A stretch of 64,000 nt of DNA, from contig JACTVC010000019.1 of the NCBI GenBank assembly GCA_018417955.1, forward strand, positions 1-64,000. Direction: 5' to 3'. The position numbers and the translations under genes are program-made. The notes under the pieces were generated by a model. That model ran no database searches, was not told where the DNA came from, and saw only the letters and a program-made list of their open reading frames with translations. The DNA comes from Laccaria trichodermophora (taxonomy: Eukaryota > Basidiomycota > Agaricomycetes > Agaricales > Hydnangiaceae). Positions 10,010-22,035 of this stretch are shown here, piece after piece; position 1 is the stretch's first letter, and every line of letters starts with the position of its first letter.

Positions 10010-12720
10010 CAAACAGAAAACTTCGAGACAAAGGTACGTCTCTCGAATGTTGAGCTTCTTTCAAATTCTTACAATGTAATATTGCTACCCTCAGAAGCGC
10101 GTGATGATCAAGTCCTGCCAAAGGCCTATTCACAGGCCATCACCCCGGAAACACGCACAAGTGTTCGTATACAAGTACGTCGGCGTAATCCAGAACTCGT
10201 TGAAGCACTATGCGACACCCCCCACATAAACCCACCATAATCGCATGGCTTCTACCCTCTTTCGCACTCCGTCGCCCCTTCAGATGCTAATCCCGCCATC
10301 CGAGCTTAGATGGCAGACCTCACCAGCATCTCTGCGTGCAGACAACCTCCTCGATCAGCTGCATGGTGTCGAAGCAGAGGAGATTGAAACCTCACTGAAA
10401 TCTCGACGAGGACGTTTCGATTTGATTCCCAATTATGACTGGCACTCGGCCCTCCCTCAACAAAGTAACTCTCCAAAGTTTTCCTTCTGCCTCAATACCC
10501 CATTCCATTTCGAATCCCGCGTCTTCCACCTCAACTGCCTCTTTTCCCACTACAAATTCTATCAACCCCTCATCCAGACCCTCATCCAACCTTCTTTGTG
10601 CGCATCGGACAACATTAACTCTGCCTCGTCATTTCCGCGTGATCGCCCCGCGAAGTTTTTCCTCCACTACTAGAATCGACGTGTTCGATGCTGGGTGGGC
10701 TGCTTGATTTCAGGTTTCCGGTGAGCAGAAGGCCAGGGTTTCCATAGGCCTGAATGACGTGTAGAAAGGTTGGACTTGGGACACAACCTCTACTCCACGC
10801 AATACAGGATGCCATTCATTACCTTCAACCCCTGCAATAATGACCTTGGCCTTGTCGAGTTGGTCTTCAAGCCCCCCTCTTGTCGAGTTCAACTTTAGAT
10901 ATCGAAAAATGGACACCATCATCGTCGGCAAAGGCTTCTCCTGCATCTCCTCAGCCTCAACAAGGAAGATCCCTGGCTAGGCTCCCAACTCCTACTCTCA
11001 AACTCCATGGGCCTCCGTGACGTTCGTGAAGATGTCGATCAGCAACGGTATTTCTGGCCCGAGAGAAGGAGAAGTATGGGTTCAAGAGATAAAGGACTCT
11101 TCTGAGCCAGCGGCACTGTAGACAGCGACGTGGGTGCAGAGTGGGGTGGCCCTAAGTGTGTGAAGATTTCGACCTTACACCCTTCACGGTGAGTTGTTTC
11201 TTGTGCTTCGTGCCTTTTCTGGAGCTGACTGTTCTTGCCGTTAAGGATATCGTGGCGTTCAGCACCATCTGACTTCTTGACCACTGGGTGGGACATATTC
11301 TTCCCTCACTTCAGTCGGCCCTCAGTTCAAATGGTAAATGCGAAAGTGGTGTCCTGTGGAAACTTCTTGATCTCAATTATGAATCGAAAAGTGAAATTGC
11401 GCGTCTCGCCGACATCGAGGTTGCTAGCAAAGCCCTCTTCGGCGTCGTCGGTTGCCTGGGATGATATAAAATTTCTACAGTGACAAAGTTTCTGTGTGCC
11501 AGGTTCAAAACCGAGCACTCTTCCCTGTATCCCAACACGCTTAGGAATAGCAGGTTGCTGCCCAGTGTGGAACCGATGATCTACGTGAAGGAAGCAGGCC
11601 TTCTCTTCCCATAAGCCGTGGCCGCAACTTGCTACGTGTTAGGCCCTGCCAGCCTGGCGCTCTACAGACTGTACCCACTGCTTGTAAGTTCCTCTCGAGC
11701 TTTTTACCTCGTACGAAGCTGATCATTCTAGATAAAAAGAGAATTTTCCCCCCCTACTTCAACTCGCACACACTCCCTGGTAATAAGTCGCGATAAATCT
11801 TCACGCTAGAAGGGACGTACAACTCGATGCCCATGATCGGCTCAGATTGCGGGTTCGTCGTATGTAAAAGCCTACGCCCTTTTTAAGTGTTTCACCAAAA
11901 TGACGTGTCCAATAGGGGCAAACTCGTGCATCTCATCGCTGTCATAGAATACATGCAGTACATCGACGTTTCAAGTCGAAGTGGGTCTGTTATATCCGCT
12001 CTCACTCTGTGTGCTAACCAGAACAACGGACTCAAGATTATGACGACGGTCACGACGCCCAATGGTCCGGACAGTTCAATGTGCTGAGATGGTAAGCCCT
12101 CATCGACGGGAGCACTTCATGTCTGATTTATCAATCAGTTACCTTTCAGCTTCCAGGAAAGCGCTACTCATTGTTCAAGACGGACTGACTACCCAAATTC
12201 AACCAAGGGCTTCTCACCGCCAGCTTCAAATCTACGGAGACGGGCAGTGCTGCTTGGCGCAGAACGGAAGAAGCTGGTCTGTGCGGTTAGGTGTGTCGAG
12301 TACCATGTATACTCATCTTGGCTTTTCTATTAGAGCAACGGGAAACATTAAATGGAACGTCGATTTTGGTGCAACCACCCCGCCGGCTACAAACCCTTGT
12401 CTGAGACTGGTTGGAAGGACTTCACCAGCCATGACGTCGGCAAACTGGAACCACAAAACCTTCGCATTTAGGACTTGAATTGGATTTCCCTGTTTGTTTT
12501 GAAGAGTCGGAATCGCGCTGGTACGTTGTCTATTACGCCTATGTCGCATTTCCCCAAACCCTTCCTGTACAGATCGGCCCTACAACCGCTGCCACTCTAA
12601 TTGACAGGAAGGTCTGTGTAATCACATACAGCCCGAACCCAAATTGCAAGGTTATTGTGAATGGTAGTCATTCTCGTTTGCGACTATCTCTATTGTAACT
12701 CATGTAATTACTGTTTTCTA
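10010..12720. repeat. Diverged duplicated block, copy 2
   Basis: This is the second copy of the block at 410-3,740, in the same orientation. It is shorter and lacks the 1,370-2,250 segment. Two stretches stay open for a while: 10,245-10,673 (142 codons beginning MASTLFRTPSP) and 12,062-12,478 (containing NGRSWSVRLGVSS and FSIRATGNIKWNVDF). In copy 1 the same stretches are interrupted. I recognise no domain. The two copies flank gene A and its gap, so the repeat could have arisen with a local duplication that included the neighbourhood. Confidence 0.75.
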
Positions 12721-14054
12721 TTCTAGAACGCAGGCAAACGACGACCCGATTTATACAGCTTTCAACGTTTCAACGAACAGCACCACTCTGACTCCTCAAA
12801 ACCGAGGAATAGCAGCTGCCAGCCCTGTCCGGATTCATGTCCGTTCGAGTTTATATCGCAGGGGTATTCATGCGGCATCCCAGACATGGGTGCTTCGAAC
12901 GTGGGGAAGTTGGGTTATGAAGCAAGCGTCATTTGCTGCTCACCGTCGTCGGTCTTCAACGGTGCAAATGCTCTTTGGCCGTGGAAGACTGAATGCTTGA
13001 AACGAACCGGGTGAAGCCGTTAACTGTACACTAACAAAGTCTCGTTGAGAACTTGCTGGTCCAACTGCTGTCCAAGGGGGTGAAAGGCAAGTGAACATTC
13101 ACATCTTGGGGTTGTACGGCGTAGTTCTGGCATTTCTCTGGGGCTAGCTTTCTTTTAGACGGTGGAACGACTCGCTAGCCGTGACGGCAATGAAGAAAAG
13201 GACAAACATATTTTGGTAAGGACAACATGAGTTGTGTCTTCGATGCGGATGCACATTGCTCACAGGCCTTGATGCAGCGCTATCCCCTGATGGTGGGGAG
13301 CATTCAAATGGAAGGTACGGTTTCAGGCAACCAATGAACGTGGAAACCTACACCGACATCGCGATTCACGGACAAATTAGTAGGGGGTGTGAGAAGGGAA
13401 GATGGGGGAGAACAGTGGCTGTGGCGATTCTTGGTTGACACGGGGACTTCATTGGCAAAACGGGATGGCACATCATGATAGAATTGTAGCTGATAATCGT
13501 ACCAAGTAGGATTTAGTTTCATACTGCTCAAGCGCTCATGTTACAGCCACTTCTTCAACCTTCCAGGTCTTCACACATAGTCTGAGTCCTCTACGTGGTC
13601 AATGAAGGAAAATGACCTCTTAGAAAGAAGCCCGCTGCCGAGGGGACTTGTCTGTGCTAAGTGGCGAGCTCATGCCAGTGCTGGAGCTCGAATGGCGACT
13701 CGAAGGGGCATTCACCTGAACTGTAACAAAACTTCAGGGAAAGTTAACCTGGAGTTTGTACTCACCCTCTCCCTCGCCGCTTGGTTGATGTTCAGATCTG
13801 GCAACAAACTTGCGCGCTTTCACGATCGTTGTGGGCAGATTGAAAAGCTCAGTTGGGGAGCCAATGATGTGTGTATATATTGGAAATTGAGTGAAGGGAA
13901 TAAAGTTGTGCGACGGAAGAACGAAAAGCTGGGAGAAGTTCGGAGTCAGTGACGTCACTCGAATGGTTGACCCAGCATAACCAAACAATACAATGCCCAC
14001 CGCGCTTATCTTGATTCTTCACCACTTCCACCATCTCAGGCATCCCAGCGACAA
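12721..14054. other. Intergenic region upstream of gene B
   Basis: No supported gene. An open frame of 116 codons at 13,602-13,952 has no recognisable domain and is probably chance. The last 100 bases before 14,055 are pyrimidine-rich with short CCACC-type motifs, as expected for a promoter and 5' leader. Confidence 0.45.
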
Positions 14055-17000
14055 ATGTCTCTTTCCAATGTTGAATCCCAGGCCGCAGAGGATATAGAAA
14101 GACAACAGAGACGAGCAGACAGAGTTCGAAACCTCACCAAGCGCTTTCGCGTCCTCATCATTGGCCGCGCCAACGCGGGGAAGACAACCATCCTCCAGCG
14201 AGTTTGCAATACGACAGAACAGCCGAAAATTTTCAATCGGGGGGGTCATGAGGTATTCCATGTTCTATTAATCATCATCTATCATTAATTGATGTGAAAA
14301 AGATTGACTCATCCAAGCTTGATCCAACTGCACAGGTAATGTAAATCTACACTTCCTCTTGCATTTTACTGAAGGTGTGACAGAGAGGGGAGCATGATAT
14401 TGAGAATGAAATGATTTTCCAGAGTAATACGGCATTTGTCTTTCATGACTCACGTGGCTTCGAAGCAGGCAGAACATCTGAGCTGGATCATGTCAAGGAC
14501 TTTTTGCAAAAATGTTCAACTGCCAAGGAGCTCAAGGATCATCTGCATGTGATTTGGTGAGTGACTGAATTGTGACATTGAAGTGCATCTGAATACATTC
14601 TGTGTAGGTACTGCATCCCAATCAATGATGAAGCCAGACCATTTACAAGGGCAGAGATAAATTTCTTTGATGAGTGTGGGACTGGTAGAGGTGTGTAAAT
14701 TATTGATAATCTCTTGAATTTCACCTTTTCTTTTTGTGCACAGTTCCTGTTATTGTCCTGTTTACAAAAGCAGATATGCTTGATGCCCAAACCATCAAAC
14801 ACCTGGTTGATACTGGAATGGATGTTGAAGATGCTGCAAATAAAGCTCCAGAAGAGTCAGTTGCCAGGTTCGAAGAGAAATTTGGCCAGCAACTCTTCAA
14901 GAGAAAGTATCCTCCCAAGGATCATGTGTATTTTCGAGGTATAACAAACTCATTTACTCATTGACAATAGATTAATTGCATTTTACAGATATGCAAAATC
15001 CCACAAGTGACTGCAGTGAACTGCTGAGGAAGACAGCAGCCACCTTTTCAGATGATACACTCTTACAGCTGTTTCTGACAGTGCAGCAAAATAATGTGGC
15101 TCTGTCAATTGAATATGCAATTATAAGGTAGTTACTTTATTTTGAATTATATGCTGCTAAATTGCTGATTATCTAGAATAATAGAGTTGTGTTTCCAAGT
15201 TGGAAAGTATTCAAAAGAAAGAGAGAGTGGAGGGAGATGGTTGAGGACATATTGTGTTATTTTCCACATATGGTATGTGAACCTTACTTGACTATACAGC
15301 TGTAGAATAAAATAAGATATTTAAACAGGAGGTAAGCCAACATCCAGTGGGTCTCAACTAGATGCTAATGGGAGCATGCTCTGGTTTTTGAATAGAATGT
15401 AAGTCAGGATCTGGCTGGCCCTTCCTGCTTTTGCTGACAAGAGCATGCTCTGGGTTTTGAACAGAATGTAAGTCAGGATCTGGCTGGCCCTTCCTGCTTG
15501 TTGCTGACTGGAGCATGCTCTGGGTTTTGAACAGGCTGTAAGTCAGCATTTTACTGGCTATTCCTGCTTGTTGCTGACAAGAGCATGCTTTGGGTTTTGA
15601 ACAGATGGTAAGTCAGGATCTGGGTGGCCCTTCCTGCTTGTTGCTAACTAGAGCATCATCTTGGTTTTGAACAGCAAGTAAGTCAGGATCTGGCTGGCCC
15701 TTCCTGCTTGTGGCTGACAAGAGCATGCTCTGGGTTTTGAACAGGATGTAAGTCAGGATCTGGCTGGGCCTTCCTGCTTGTTGCTGACAAGAGCATGCTT
15801 TGGGTTTTGAACAGTATGTAAGTCAGGATCTGGCTGGCCCTTCCTGCTTGCTGCTGACAAGAGCATGCTCTGGGTTATAAACAGCGGGTGAGTCAGGATC
15901 TGACTGGCCCTTCCTGCTTGTTGCTGACAAGAGCATGCCTTGGGTTATAAACAGCGGGTGAGTCAGGATCTGGCTGGCCCTTCCTGCTGGTTGCTGACAA
16001 GAGCATGCTCTGGGTTTTGAACAGTATGTAAGTCAGGATCTGGCTGGCCCTTCCTGCTGGTTGCTGACAAGAGCATGCTCTGGGTTTTGAACAGGGTGTA
16101 AGTCAGGATCTGGCTGGCCCTTCCTGCTTGTTGCTGACAAGAGCATGCCTTGGGTTTTGAACAGAAAGTAAGTCAGGATCTGGCTGGCCCTTCCTGCTTG
16201 TTGCTGACAAGAGCATGCCTTGGGTTTTGAACAGGATGTAAGTCAGGATCTGACTGGCCCTTCCTGCTTGTTGCTGACAAGAGCATGCCTTGGGTTTTGA
16301 ACAGGAAGTAAGTCAGGATCTGGTTGGCCCTTCCTGCTTGTTGCTGATGAGAGCATGCTCTGGGTTTTGAACAGATTGTAAGTCAGGATTTGACTGGCCC
16401 TTCCTGCTTGTTGCTGATGAGAGCATGCCTTTGGTTTTGAACAGAAAGTAAGTCAGGATCTGGCTGGCCCTTCCTGCTTGTTGCTGATGAGAGCATGCCT
16501 TGGGTTTTGAACAGATTGTAAGTCAGGATTTGACTGGCCCTTCCTGCTTGTTGCTGATGAGAGCATGCCTTTGGTTTTGAACAGAAAGTAAGTCAGGATC
16601 TGGCTGGCCCTTCCTGCTTGTTGCTGATGAGAGCATGCCTTGGGTTTTGAACAGAAAGTAAGTCAGGATCTGGCTGGCCCTTCCTGCTTGTTGCTGACAA
16701 GAGCATGCCTTGGGTTTTGAATAGGCTGTAAGTCAGGATCTGGCTGGCCCTTTCTGCTTGTTGCTAACAAGAGCATGCCTTGGGTTTTGAACAGGAAGTA
16801 AGTCAGGATCTGGCTGGCCCTTCCTGCTTGTTGCTGACAAGAGCATGCCTTGGGTTTGAACAGCAAGTAAGTCAGGATCTGGCTGGCCCTTCCTGCTTGT
16901 TGCTGACAAGAGCATGCCTTGGGTTTTGAACAGGCTGTAAGTCAGGATCCGGCTGGCCCTTCCTGCTGGTTGCTGACAAGAGCATGCTCTGGGTTTTGAA

Positions 17001-20000
17001 CAGCAAGTAAGTCAGGATCTGACTGGCCCTTCCTGCTTGTTGCTGACAAGAGCATGCCTTGGGTTTTGAACAGGCTGTAAGTCAGGATCTGACTGGCCCT
17101 TTCTGCTTGTTGCTGACAAGAGCATGCTTTGGGTTTTGAACAGGATGTAGGTCAGGATCTGGCTGGCCCTTCCTGCTAGTTGCTGACAAGAGCATGCTCT
17201 GGGTTTTGAACAGGATGTAAGTCAGGATCTGGCTGGCCCTTTCTGCTTGTTGCTGACAAGAGCATGCCTTGGGTTTTGAACAGGATGTAAGTCAGGATCT
17301 GGCTGCCTCTTTCTGCTTGTTGCTGACAAGAGCATGCTCTGGGTTTTGAACAGGCTGTAAGTCAGGATCTGACTGGCCCTTCCTGCTTGTTGCTGACAAG
17401 AGCATGCCTTGGGTTATAAACAGCAGGTGAGTCAGGATCTGGCTGGCCCTTCCTGCTGGTTGCTGACAAGAGCATGCTCTGGGTTTTGAACAGTTTGTAA
17501 GTGGCTGGCCCTTCCTGCTTGTTGCTGACAAGAGCATGCTCTGGGTTTTAAACAGAATGTAAGTCAGGATCTGGCTGGCCCTTCCTGCTTGTTGCTGACA
17601 AGAGCATGCTTTGGGTTTTGAACAGGAAGTAAGTCAGGATCTGGCTGGCCCTTCCTGCTAGTTGCTGACAAGAGCATGCTCTGGGTTTTGAACAGCTTGT
17701 AAGTCAGGATCTGACTGGCCCTTCCTGCTTGTTGCTGACAAGAGCATGCCTTGGGTTTTGAACAGCGTGTAAGTCAGGACCTGACTGGCCCTTCCTGCTT
17801 GTTGCTGACAAGAGCATGGCCTATATTTCAAATAGAAAGTATGTCTCAGCCTTCTTCTCTTTTCATTTTGCTAAGAATGATGAGATTGTGAGTTCAGTTG
17901 TAGAATTTTAGAAAAATATTCATGAAACTCTACTTCTTCAAATAGTATGTGAGTATTATATTTTTCTTCCCATCATTTTTTTAAAACTAGTATTGACTGA
18001 ACCACATACTATTTTTAGGTGAAGAATGTCCCCAATCATACTGACTGGTCCTTGGTAAACCCTCACCACATAAATGCTATTCAGTATTCTGACCACAACA
18101 TAATTCTATGTAGATTCACAATACCAAATCCTTCAATCACATTGCCTTTCTCTGTATTGGTGTGTCTACTCTCATTTCTGACTGCTCTATCATAACTACT
18201 ATTTTACTGCTCAGTGACTGCTATCATTGCAGAGCACTCTTTTTTTCTCTGGAAACAGAAACCTTCAGCTTCTGTGAAGCGTTCACTCTGAACTTCTCGC
18301 ATAGCTGAAGCCAAGAGGGAAGGAGGAGGCAAGAATGGGTGGATCTGGGATCAACACCCATGAGTGAGCAATGAGCAGTTACAAGATACTCAGCTGGCCC
18401 AACATGATTATGCATACTGTAGGAAGTACAGTTATACAAAGCACTACATGTAGTGCAAGAGGATGGCAAGACTGCTGACAAGGTGGTGGTTCAAGACAAA
18501 AGATCAATATATTATGTAAGATATCCAAATCTAGCTATATACCACTGTTTGACTATGGCCTCTGGGCATTCCCTGCCAATCCTATATCACAAAGCCCCCC
18601 AATGTCCAGAGGGCATGTAAGGAAAACAATGGTGGGGAAGAATAATAGAATAGAAATCCTCTTGCCCCCAGAGTGAATATCAGGATAAAATGAGACCAAA
18701 AGGTAGCAAAGCAAAGAAGATGAATAAAAGAAAGAAAAAATTTGGCCCCAAATAATTTACTATCTGGAAAGCTGGTCACTGTAAGCTCCCAGCTTAACCC
18801 AGAAATACCCATATGATCCTCCCATTCTCTCTTCAGTGATGTATAACCATGAGTACTGGGAAACCATGCAAGTGGATGGCTTCCAGGTCATCCATCCCAA
18901 CTCCATTGCCTTTCCCCATCAAGATGGTGTAGCATGCTTCCATCATACTTGTGGTCTGGGTATAAGACATGTATAGTGTGATAGAGGCTTGCGCCTCTCC
19001 ACTCAGATCGTTGATCCCAACTCAACTCCCTTTACCCATCAAGATGATGTAGCTTGCTTCCATTGTGGTGTGTCATCTGGACGTGGGGAGTGTGTAATGG
19101 GATAGAGGCTTGCGCCTCTCCTCCCATCTTCCACCTATACTCCCCTACAGCCCCCCACTTTTCCAGTGTGCGAATCTCAAGAATCAAGCCAGGGAGGATA
19201 GAGGCGAAGAGATCGTGCAGTGGAAAATTACAAGCCGTGATCGTAAGTTGGTGTCAGAGTAGGTAGAGGTGGTGCCAGTTGGGTAGGAATGATGAGAGGT
19301 TGAAGGAAAGGGGGAGAGAAAAAAAAAAAAATGTTGTCATAAATCTTGCCCCCCAGAGTGGACACAGGCCATGCAACACACAAGCAGCAATCTATAAGGT
19401 TACCATGATTGAAGAAGAGTCCGCCGCATAATGTGCGAGCAGCAACTCCTCAACACTGATCCGCCGCAAAACATGCGAGCTGCAATCAGGAGCCAGAAGG
19501 TTACCATGATTGAAGAAGAGTCCGCCGCGTAATGCGCGAGCAGCAACTCCTCAACACTGATCCGCCGCGTAACTCGCGAGCGGCAATCAGTACTTCTGAG
19601 GGACTCAGAAGGTTACCATGATTGAAGAAGAGTCCGCCACGTAATGCGCGAGCTGCAACTCCTCCACACCGATCCGCCGCGAAATGCGCGAGCAGCAATC
19701 AGCCTTCTGAGAGAGCCAGAAGGTTACCATGACTGAAGAAGAGTCCGCCGCGTAATGCGCGAGCAGCAACTCTCAACCAGTTGAGGTGTCTCCCCTGCCC
19801 ATAAGAGTCCTCCAATCAAGTCTTAATGCCCCAAATAGAGGGGAGATCCTGAGGTAGCCAAAAATGTGTTTGAGCATAGCGTAGTGATTTCTGGCCCGTT
19901 CCTGGAGATCAAATACCCGTTCGAAAGCTACGAACGACACCTTTCCAACGGTATAATTCGCGTATCGTGACGAGCCGTGGTCGTTGAGATAGAGAGGAAG

Positions 20001-22035
20001 TACCCAGAAACTGCAGTTCTGGAGTAAATGCATACTGCAGACCAGGCTGTTGTCCGTTATCAACGTAAATAGGTGCGTCGGAAAGGTACGAATCCAACGT
20101 CCAAAACGGGCTATAGAACGTCCGATGCGAGCGGGTTATGACAATAGGAATGGGGAAATGGTTGTTGAAGAGATGGCACTGTAACACAAGGACCGCTCGT
20201 CCATTTGATGCGTATGAGGGCTTCCCAGAAGCGCATTGACCGTGGCTTCAAAACGAACCAAAGAACGAAAGAGGCGACCGAGATCTCGCCGAGAACGGAC
20301 GAAATATGTTCATCTTGGTCATACCAGACTGAACTAGGCGAAGCGCCGCCAACAGGTGACCGTTTGGCGAGTTCAGGGAGTCCAAAGGAAGGTGTGGATC
20401 AGGGCTTTCCAACGCAAAAAGGATGAGAGCGATACGACCGTCAGTTGGCGAGATATGACATGAACAAGTCACATGCAAATGGTTGTTGGAGGGATGGTGC
20501 TGTGACACGAGAACCGCTTGTCCGTTTGACGCGTATGAGGGCTTCCCAGAAGCGCATTGACCGTGGCTTCAAAACAAGCCAAAGAACAAAAGGAACGACG
20601 AGGTTCTCGCCGAGAACGGACGAAATATGTTCATCTTGGTCATACCAGGCTGAAGTAGGTGAAGCGCAGCCAATACGCGACCGTTTGGCGAGTTCAGGGG
20701 GTCCAAAGAAAGGTGTAAATGAGGGCTTTCCAGCGCAAAAGAGACGAGAGCAATCGGGGCGTCGGTCGGCGAGATATGAGGTGAATAAGTCCCATTTTGA
20801 TGTCCCATCAACCCCATCCAACCCAAAACCACTCCAAACCCTTCTAACCATTCAGAAACCAAGAAGAGCCATTCCAGGGAGTTCATAGAGAAGAAAGGAG
20901 GATGAGAATACTCATTCCTCAAGCAAGAAAAGCAGCAAAGATTGGGAGAGAAGCATAGTAGGGCATAGCACATAATTTCCAGAGCAGCAGACTGAACTGG
21001 AGGGATGTCAATGAACATCTGGCTGTTCTTGAGAGGCCTAGATGCTAAAAGACAAGGGAGATGGTTGAGGAACAGGTGGAGTCTGAGAGACAGTGAAGCA
21101 GCGCAAAGCAGCAGGCGACACTGGTTGCAGGCGACCTCCTCACCAAGTCAATGGCCGCATAGTCGCGAAATCCAGACATAGGTGAGAGGAACTCTCCTCA
21201 CAGTAGACTTCAGGCCGCGTAGTCGCGAAATCCCAAAGCCCAGCTGCTCAGAGTCAGCGCAGCACCCCAATCGAACAAACCTCAACCAGCTGTGCAAGCA
21301 CAAGCTAAAGTCAATGGTTCATCCAACCGAAGGATGGATGAGCCCTTTCACATGAAGTAGTAAGCCCGCCGCGAAGTGCGCGAGCAGCAGCTACCATCCA
21401 TGCTAAGGTTCCTCCTGTGATGAGCTGGTGCATTCCCACAACTCTCCAGCTCTCCCTCTACCAAGAAATGCAGACTTCAACCATGCTTTGGTGAAGTCCG
21501 CGGTGCCCCCACCATTGTGAAGCGTTCACTCTGAACTTCTCGCATAGCTGAAGCCAAGAGGGAAGGAGGAGGCAAGAATGGGTGGATCTGGGATCAACAC
21601 CCATGAGTGAGCAATGAGCAGTTACAAGATACTCAGCTGGCCCAACATGATTATGCATACTGTAGGAAGTACAGTTATACAAAGCACTACATGTAGTGCA
21701 AGAGGATGGCAAGACTGCTGACAAGGTGGTGGTTCAAGACAAAAGATCAATATATTATGTAAGATATCCAAATCTAGCTATATACCACTGTTTGACTATG
21801 GCCTCTGGGCATTCCCTGCCAATCCTATATCACAGCTTCCCCTGCCCCCTACAAATTAGCCATTCAAAAGTTCAACTTGTCTGCTGACATGGCAAAAATC
21901 AACACTGCCATTGAGGAGGCCTCTCATATGAAGACCAAGGAAGAAAAGAAACAGGCTCTTGTAAAGATTGCTATGGACAATCGTCTTCGTGAGTATCAAT
22001 ATTCCAAGTCTTCCAAGGTCTTCTCATTTATTTGA
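14055..22035 (+). CDS. P-loop GTPase with single-codon exon array, 3' end split by LTR element (gene B)
   Basis: Seven ordinary exons read cleanly: 14055-14252, 14303-14335, 14384-14556, 14608-14690, 14744-14938, 14989-15127 and 15185-15272. They sum to 303 codons and end in phase 0. Motifs are G1 GRANAGKTT, RGEHDIENEM, G3 FHDSRGFEAG, HVIWYCIP, G4 VLFTKADML, then LLRKTAATFSDDTLLQLF and a last exon with FPSWKVFKRKREW. This is the large Agaricomycete G-domain family, distinct from gene A. The exon array at 15329-17838 follows directly. Probable later exons are 17946-17948, about 18019-18054, 18115-18154 and 18214 onward, the last reading ...SFFLWKQKPSAS. That exon is split at 18272 by the retrotransposon and resumes at 21840 with PAPYKLAIQKFNLSADM, ending near 22035. 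Exons 3 to 7 use AT-ending codons, unlike the GC-ending neighbours. The G-domain part is firm, the downstream chain less so. Confidence 0.78.
15329..17838 (+). repeat. Array of 37 single-codon exon candidates separated by near-identical introns
   Basis: Three-base units begin at 15329, 15396, 15465, then every 70 bases to 16795, at 16864, then every 70 to 17494, at 17556, then every 70 to 17836. Each unit is preceded by ACAG (or ATAG) and followed by GTAAGT (GTGAGT three times; GTAGGT, GTAAGC and GTATGT once each). Between units lie about 67 nt with CTGAC, CTAAC or CTGAT some 27 nt before the AG, so each spacer has a full set of fungal intron signals. The upstream exon ends in phase 0, so each unit would add one codon. 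Units 15329-16097 read E-N-N-A-M-Q-D-Y-R-R-Y-G. Units 16165-16936 read K-D-E-I-K-I-K-K-A-E-Q-A. The rest, from 17004, read Q-A-D-D-D-A-Q-F-N-E-L-R-K. No stop codon occurs. Sixteen or so different triplets occur while the introns are almost uniform. The alternative is a minisatellite inside one long intron. Confidence 0.8.
18268..18272. repeat. Target-site duplication, left
   Basis: GCTTC lies immediately before the left LTR and is repeated immediately after the right LTR. Five-base duplications are usual for LTR retrotransposon integrases. Confidence 0.88.
18273..18591. repeat. Left LTR (319 bp)
   Basis: It begins TGTGAAGCG and ends TATATCACA, giving the TG...CA termini of an LTR. By eye it is identical in sequence and length to 21516-21834. 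Identity suggests a recent insertion. Part of a minus-strand open frame overlaps it, but the frame simply repeats in both LTRs and is not a credible gene. Confidence 0.9.
18870..19115. repeat. Two tandem copies inside the LTR element
   Basis: A unit of roughly 130 bp containing CCATCAAGATG.TGTAGC and GATAGAGGCTTGCGCCTCTCC occurs twice in a row (about 18,885-18,998 and 19,005-19,120). The second motif is a short inverted repeat (GAGGC..GCCTC) in each copy. No coding potential is seen. Confidence 0.7.
19395..19780. repeat. Four-copy tandem repeat inside the LTR element
   Basis: Units of about 100-115 bp start near 19,398, 19,497, 19,610 and 19,723. Each begins AAGGTTACCATGA.TGAAG followed by AGTCCGCC.CGTAATG.GCGAGC. 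The CCGCCGCG..CGCGAG motif recurs within each unit and again near 21,365. Units differ by a few substitutions and short insertions. Confidence 0.78.
20200..20780. repeat. Two ~316-bp direct copies inside the LTR element
   Basis: The segment with TTTGA.GCGTATGAGGGC through GAGATATGA occurs at about 20,190-20,460 and again at about 20,515-20,780, with scattered substitutions. The open frames over it on either strand are shadows of the repeat and show no domain. Confidence 0.75.
21516..21834. repeat. Right LTR (319 bp)
   Basis: By eye it is identical to the left LTR at 18273-18591, and it is followed directly by the second GCTTC at 21835-21839. Confidence 0.9.

Follow-up and report, generated by a model that had tools for sequence, protein, structure and literature searches.

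The window analysed here is a 64,000-nucleotide stretch of the basidiomycete Laccaria trichodermophora (assembly GCA_018417955.1, contig JACTVC010000019.1, positions 1 to 64,000), in which a gene for a P-loop GTPase carries a tandem array of three-base units set between splice sites. The GTPase part of this gene lies on the forward strand and comprises seven exons: exon 1 (14055..14252), which holds the start codon and the P-loop GRANAGKTT, exon 2 (14303..14335), exon 3 (14384..14556), exon 4 (14608..14690), exon 5 (14744..14938), exon 6 (14989..15127), and exon 7 (15185..15272), which ends in CYFPHM in phase 0. Joined together, these exons (14055-15272) form a stop-free frame of 909 nucleotides (nt) encoding 303 residues. 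The product has 1748 protein relatives at E<=1e-3 and is related to the G domain-containing P-loop GTPases of Agaricomycetes, with its closest relatives in Laccaria bicolor (92%) and L. amethystina. All Pfam matches to the product fall below the cut-off, and most are to GTPase models (Arf at 21.9 bits, MMR_HSR1 at 20.5).

The array follows exon 7 and contains 37 AG-NNN-GT triplets at 15329..17838 on the forward strand, confirming the array described in the first-pass annotation. The first triplet starts 56 nt past the end of exon 7, not immediately after position 15272 as that annotation had it. The claimed 70-bp spacing applies to 32 of 36 steps, the remainder being 69 bp (twice), 67 bp (once), and 62 bp (once), and introns between neighbours are mostly 67 nt long. 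The count of 37 also needs one addition: a 38th triplet, TAT, lies 110 bp further on at 17946..17948 (+), beyond an intron of 107 nt that has diverged. A closing step of 110-112 bp likewise ends the chain in 10 of the 16 other GTPase-family array pieces. In order, the 37 triplets start at 15329 (GAG), 15396 (AAT), 15465 (AAT), 15535 (GCT), 15605 (ATG), 15675 (CAA), 15745 (GAT), 15815 (TAT), 15885 (CGG), 15955 (CGG), 16025 (TAT), 16095 (GGT), 16165 (AAA), 16235 (GAT), 16305 (GAA), 16375 (ATT), 16445 (AAA), 16515 (ATT), 16585 (AAA), 16655 (AAA), 16725 (GCT), 16795 (GAA), 16864 (CAA), 16934 (GCT), 17004 (CAA), 17074 (GCT), 17144 (GAT), 17214 (GAT), 17284 (GAT), 17354 (GCT), 17424 (CAG), 17494 (TTT), 17556 (AAT), 17626 (GAA), 17696 (CTT), 17766 (CGT), and 17836 (AAA). 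Translated, they read ENNAMQDYRRYGKDEIKIKKAEQAQADDDAQFNELRK, then Y.

The window introns mostly begin with GTAAGT or GTGAGT and end with AACAG. A YTRAY branch-point motif is present in all 35 window introns examined and, in 34 of them, lies 27 nt upstream of the 3' splice site. Tandem Repeats Finder (TRF) describes the same array as a repeat of period 70 with 35.1 copies and 90% matches. A genome-wide pattern of three consecutive GTRAGT / AG-NNN-GTRAGT units has 646 matches (291 + 355) versus 3 (2 + 1) for the same pattern read backward, ruling out a chance origin of the AG-NNN-GT layout.

Three further exons on the forward strand follow the array. Exon A (18019..18054) contributes 12 codons, VKNVPNHTDWSL, and the aligned paralogues have a similar exon after their arrays. 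Exon B (18114..18159, IHNTKSFNHIAFLCI) and the 5' part of exon C (18215..18272, (V)TAIIAEHSFFLWKQKPSAS) come next. These coordinates correct the first-pass annotation, which mentions an exon near 18,120. Wherever they could be matched, exons A, B, and C encode a C-terminal region common to the paralogues.

Exon C is interrupted by an insertion of long terminal repeat (LTR) type (18273..21834, strand unassigned), with 319-bp LTRs at 18273-18591 and 21516-21834 and a 5-bp target duplication, GCTTC. The remainder of the exon (..APYKLAIQKFNLSADMAKINTAIEEASH..) resumes at 21835..21993 (+), where tblastn aligns 21838-21993 to a composite query at 73% identity. The interior of the element contains tandem repeats of 112 and 321 bp, and its longest stop-to-stop frame spans 192 codons. 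Because exon C is broken, the predicted product of the window copy terminates early, and this copy may be a pseudogene, its array a remnant of functional paralogues. The chances of this are evenly poised: the insertion falls in the last coding exon, but its LTRs are identical (319/319), which makes it young, and the GTPase exons and the array are still open. A pseudogene in the window would be compatible with spliced one-codon exons in the family at large.

A search of the assembly (59.03 Mb, 77 contigs) with exon 5 detected 16 copies of the gene, the window copy counted. Three-nucleotide units follow the GTPase exons in all 16, forming a chain in 15 and numbering three in the copy C23d, in which foreign DNA (an insertion) comes next. 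A match to exon 7 is present in 13 of the 16 copies; in C16, C18, and C77 units sit at the expected distance instead. Where the distance from exon 7 to the first unit was measured, it is 52-62 nt in 12 of 12 copies, including the window. Judging by position and strand, C11c and C11b, and likewise C23b and C23a, look like halves of single genes split by insertions.

Taken by themselves, the 38 stop-free triplets of the window are weak evidence of coding, and the weight comes from these paralogues. The set comprises 430 triplets from 17 GTPase-family array pieces, after two false units inside exon 7 (in C1 and C34) were removed from 432. None of the 430 is a stop codon, versus a mean of 7.37 when the three columns are shuffled within arrays, and 1 of 5000 shuffles reached zero; with all 432 triplets, of which 394 units were distinct, none of 5000 did. 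The third base after TA is T in 34 of 34 cases, while A or G follows AA, CA, or GA in 36 of 198 (P 0.0011, the value also obtained before cleaning). Residue usage is skewed, with 90 D, 68 A, 54 N, and 34 Y versus five each of S, P, and G among the 430, and codon counts show the skew too (GCT 64 vs TCT 2 and CCT 5; GAT 89 vs GGT 3 among the 432). In the GTPase-family arrays the third base is mostly T where the residue permits, arginine, mostly CGA, being the main exception.

Variation within the arrays is concentrated in the triplets. Mean pairwise diversity is higher in triplets than in introns by a factor of 8.1 in the window, 8.9 in C59, 38 in C19a, and 3.4-5.8 in four other arrays. The three most variable columns of the window array are the three triplet columns; in C11b, C18, C6, and others, some intron columns are as variable. 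When unit pairs pooled from ten arrays (260 units) are binned by intron divergence, every bin of at least 20 pairs shows triplet differences of 0.45-0.59 per base. Even where the flanks diverge by less than 2%, triplets still differ by 0.48 per base (376 unit pairs, 241 of them within C19a).

These observations bear on the possibility that one large intron, removed whole, contains the array as a minisatellite, in which case tandem duplication of a short intron would have produced the AG-NNN-GT pattern incidentally. Tandem repeats commonly form arrays this large, the Laccaria gene models examined lack the codons, and splicing in the same gene is a prediction. A minisatellite would nevertheless have to account for the absence of stops in 430 triplets and for variation that clusters in the triplets instead of being spread evenly over the unit. 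It would also have to explain C77 and C16, in which TRF detects no tandem repeat at the array, yet three-nucleotide units between splice sites persist, so that spacing and splice sites outlive the decay of the repeats. Together with unrelated introns sharing the layout at other loci and a relative's protein, P0019, carrying residues at the junction, both described below, this makes a minisatellite highly improbable.

A different alternative concerns the origin of the variation, which may stem from a targeted mutational or recombinational process, not from selection on ordinary mutations. C19a speaks for such a process: 31 of its unit pairs, not all independent of one another, are flanked on both sides by identical introns, yet in 26 of these pairs the triplets are unlike, with two or three bases changed in 17. 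The non-random choice of residues and the absence of stops point to selection at the amino-acid level instead, leaving a targeted process unlikely.

Evidence that the triplets contribute to protein comes from an apparently spliced relative. P0019 (362 residues, from a 1312-bp contig) runs straight through the sites where the window has introns 2 to 6, and through the array as well. Its contig is too short for these introns, suggesting that it derives from complementary DNA, and the same reasoning from length applies to related contigs, among them that of P0024 (458 residues, 1727 bp), which also covers both domains. Between FPHV and the homologue of exon A, P0019 carries YHNDFFNFDFFEFCDDFDAIDELNCIP, a D/F/N-rich segment of 27 residues. 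Tested on its first 25 residues, this segment resembles the Laccaria arrays in composition so closely that a fraction of just 0.0011 of 5451 control windows fit as well or better, and its last two residues, IP, equal the last two microexons of C16 (ATT, CCT), directly before exon A. In contrast to this continuous segment, the gene models P0017, P0018, and P0055 (L. amethystina, L. bicolor) contain a translated array intron at the array position, and the peptide FLHDADNGLLWVLNR within them matches many introns of the C18 array. Gene callers can thus miss such exons, and hypervariable parts of fungal proteins have probably been overlooked in annotations.

Taken together, the 38 triplets are likely single-codon exons that would be spliced consecutively. 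In the protein they would form a hypervariable stretch, about 38 residues long, separating the GTPase domain from a predicted helical C-terminal region. The first-pass annotation's proposal that this GTPase gene contains consecutive one-codon exons is thereby supported by the coding signature, the presence of units in 16/16 copies, their persistence past intron divergence, and the P0019 segment. It is likely that the predicted codon-sized exons of this family are functional.

Several points weigh against this interpretation. For the copies in this genome, the support for splicing is a prediction from sequence, while P0019 is a relative's form whose contig is judged to be spliced by its length. 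Because units duplicate, the triplets are non-independent observations and their counts overstate independence. Positive selection on them is putative, with targeted mutation as the alternative, and the ratio of triplet to intron diversity is just 2.2 in C18, which has older introns, and 1.8 in C6, a value based on 91 units with false matches among them. In C16, exon 7 is followed by ATAAGT and no GT donor, which may mean that the copy has decayed or that it splices at another junction. The window copy itself has its last coding exon interrupted by the LTR-type element.

The order of codons adds to these reservations. Aligning units by their introns revealed no significant excess of shared triplets in any of nine paralogue pairs (the best reached 78 of 500 shuffles), and conserved codon order between paralogues was not found in this way. 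Similarity at the peptide level exists in just 5 of 105 pairs (at most 3 of 300 shuffles). A few peptide blocks are nevertheless common to paralogues: DYRRYG occurs in the window array and in C1, with both arginines encoded by CGG in one and CGA in the other.

The survey of relatives is similarly mixed. Among the best 120 of the 1748 relatives, 16 are jgi or lgn proteins, and in just six of these (P0019, P0024, P0025, P0037, P0074, P0104) is the FPH motif followed by a low-complexity segment. P0036, P0058, and P0071 continue past FPH with no clear segment of this kind, P0022, P0031, P0042, and P0085 end within about 30 residues of it, and P0057, P0077, and P0096 stop short of it. The segments of P0024, P0025, P0037, P0074, and P0104 are lower in complexity than nearly all or all controls. 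With segments picked by eye, the Laccaria residue make-up is fitted strongly by P0104, fairly by P0024, and weakly by P0025, and is not matched by P0037 and P0074. The Pisolithus tinctorius gene model P0073 and the near-identical, contig-derived P0074 share the GTPase and diverge exactly after WFPNTK, where P0074 continues with a Q/E/Y-rich segment missing from P0073.

If the triplets are single-codon exons, each intron of about 67 nt (60-70 nt) would be recognized by intron definition and removed. Removal would probably proceed 5' to 3', with the upstream exon growing by 3 nt per step as the sole upstream exon. Every unit is one phase-0 codon, and therefore any set of units can be skipped with no loss of frame. 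Unequal exchange of units would alter the length and order of the array, again with no frameshift. The introns may act as near-identical recombination spacers evolving in concert, while the codons would diverge under putatively strong diversifying selection.

The frame-neutrality of units also raises the possibility that the triplets are mostly spliced alternatively, with a varying subset in each mRNA as in the NACHT-ANK genes of truffles, which would be compatible with one-codon exons as such. Any subset would keep the frame, alternative splicing is what has been described in truffle, and the 27 residues of P0019 are fewer than the window array would supply. Array lengths differ among genes in any case, however, and the strong, uniform splice signals favor constitutive use, so mostly alternative use is a real but not the favored prospect.

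Arrays of the same layout occur outside the GTPase family. By our own count, 353 of the 646 three-unit matches fall in the GTPase-family and C6 loci. A second pattern with no C after GTRAGT has 275 matches versus 1 in the control, with 100 of the 275 listed, and a pattern with two purines after GTRAGT has 1 match genome-wide. Because the genome-wide patterns cover GTRAGT donors and arrays were identified among the matches listed, the genome has at least the arrays described here. Introners, near-identical introns dispersed to unrelated single sites, were considered for the one intron type searched by its core string: there are 104 exact matches, and all of those listed (100) lie in GTPase-family arrays.

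The C6 array (C6:742394-745735, period 71) has 58 triplets in a loose chain, rich in R, E, L, and D; a stricter chain keeps 24 units, and none of 64 CAG-NNN-GTG triplets is a stop. A longer C6 exon through the GTGAGT donor was considered and rejected, as the branch motif would lie about 10 nt from the donor and the leftover 28-nt exon would be out of frame. On C12, an array of period 63 (C12:1184285-1185926) has 28 triplets and 0 stops, a count that is uninformative alone given the 0.64 stops expected. The introns of these C6 and C12 arrays are no more similar to the window intron than shuffled sequence is, although the layout is alike, and neither array shares the T bias at the third base. 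A second C12 array (C12:1255293-1260746, period 69) is represented by 67 units among the matches listed, none a stop by reading, and one-codon units also form an array on C23 (C23:527873 onward); in form, both are like the period-63 array, so that two further intron types in all accompany the layout. The introns of the last two arrays are of the type GTGAGTTGGCCTGG..TTTCAG.

The first-pass annotation knew of no long run of consecutive one-codon exons, but such runs have a precedent. The NLR (NACHT-ANK) genes of the truffle Tuber melanosporum contain tens or dozens of codon-sized microexons, according to PMC4986451, PMC3689799, PMC10197012, and PMC9815663. Three of these four sources credit the nank microexons to Iotti et al. 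2012; PMC10197012 cites a numbered reference. The Laccaria arrays resemble the truffle genes in having tens of 3-bp exons, a layout read here from the genomic DNA alone, and in belonging to an expanded paralogous family of a mycorrhizal fungus that shares the layout, here in 16/16 copies. The truffle microexons are described as diversifying a recognition domain. The two systems differ in that the truffle genes encode alternatively spliced NACHT-ANK receptors of an ascomycete, whereas the Laccaria array lies mid-protein in a basidiomycete P-loop GTPase and has counterparts with further intron types at other loci.

The Laccaria GTPase does not combine NACHT and ankyrin domains in the manner of the truffle type: the Pfam scan of its product contains no ankyrin match, and NACHT in the relative P0018 scores 12.5 bits against a cut-off of 26.7. 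P0019 represents one apparently spliced form in a relative. The literature searched, mostly without subscription papers, contains no report of such arrays in Basidiomycota. Relative to truffle, the likely novelties are another phylum, another protein family, and several intron families. The presence of the layout in a mushroom as well as a truffle suggests that recognition proteins have adopted it repeatedly.

Other systems share single features with the Laccaria arrays. Schistosome micro-exon genes (MEGs) are also described as having many small exons and variable proteins. MEG exons comprise several codons each and are not tandem single codons with near-identical introns. One-nucleotide exons are reported for Arabidopsis (PMC4674806) and for CYP621A of Fusarium (PMC12940212), sub-codon splicing in a plant and a fungus, but as single exons, not arrays. 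In the hnwd WD-repeat genes of Podospora, alike repeats are exchanged and reshuffled and diversify a recognition domain, as outlined in part of PMC9815663; there the repeat backbone is coding, whereas in Laccaria the conserved part of the repeat is an intron.

By analogy with fungal hypervariable nonself-recognition proteins, the hypervariable stretch is likely to be a recognition surface. A tentative extension, for which the case is suggestive at best, is that Laccaria invented a genome-wide device with one codon per intron, independent of truffle. Several unrelated introns would have multiplied into arrays, with recombination keeping the introns alike, and the codons would be scrambled and expressed, perhaps in combinations, as surfaces for nonself recognition. 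If single-codon splicing is true, the spliceosome removes tens of consecutive introns 3 nt apart, testing intron definition and ordered splicing, and a protein region exists in which each residue can change, be gained, or be lost with no frameshift.

The C-terminal part of P0019 is modelled as helices, with the array segment predicted to join the GTPase to them at low confidence in between. The model has a pLDDT (predicted local distance difference test) of 74 and a pTM (predicted template modelling score) of 0.59, and it is weak in the segment and linker (about residues 241-280, 39-59). Foldseek returned no match for it with an E of 0.001 or lower, and given both results, no function is drawn from structure. 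Two region searches returned few proteins, 4 and 3 with the query counted. Searching solved structures with a profile returned 8 weak matches, all of them P-loop GTPases. The C6 array (locus C6:738500-748400) runs into an open frame with a sub-threshold DDHD match only. About 2 kb upstream of the window gene (12001-14050) is also common to several paralogues, and the duplicated block therefore exceeds the gene.

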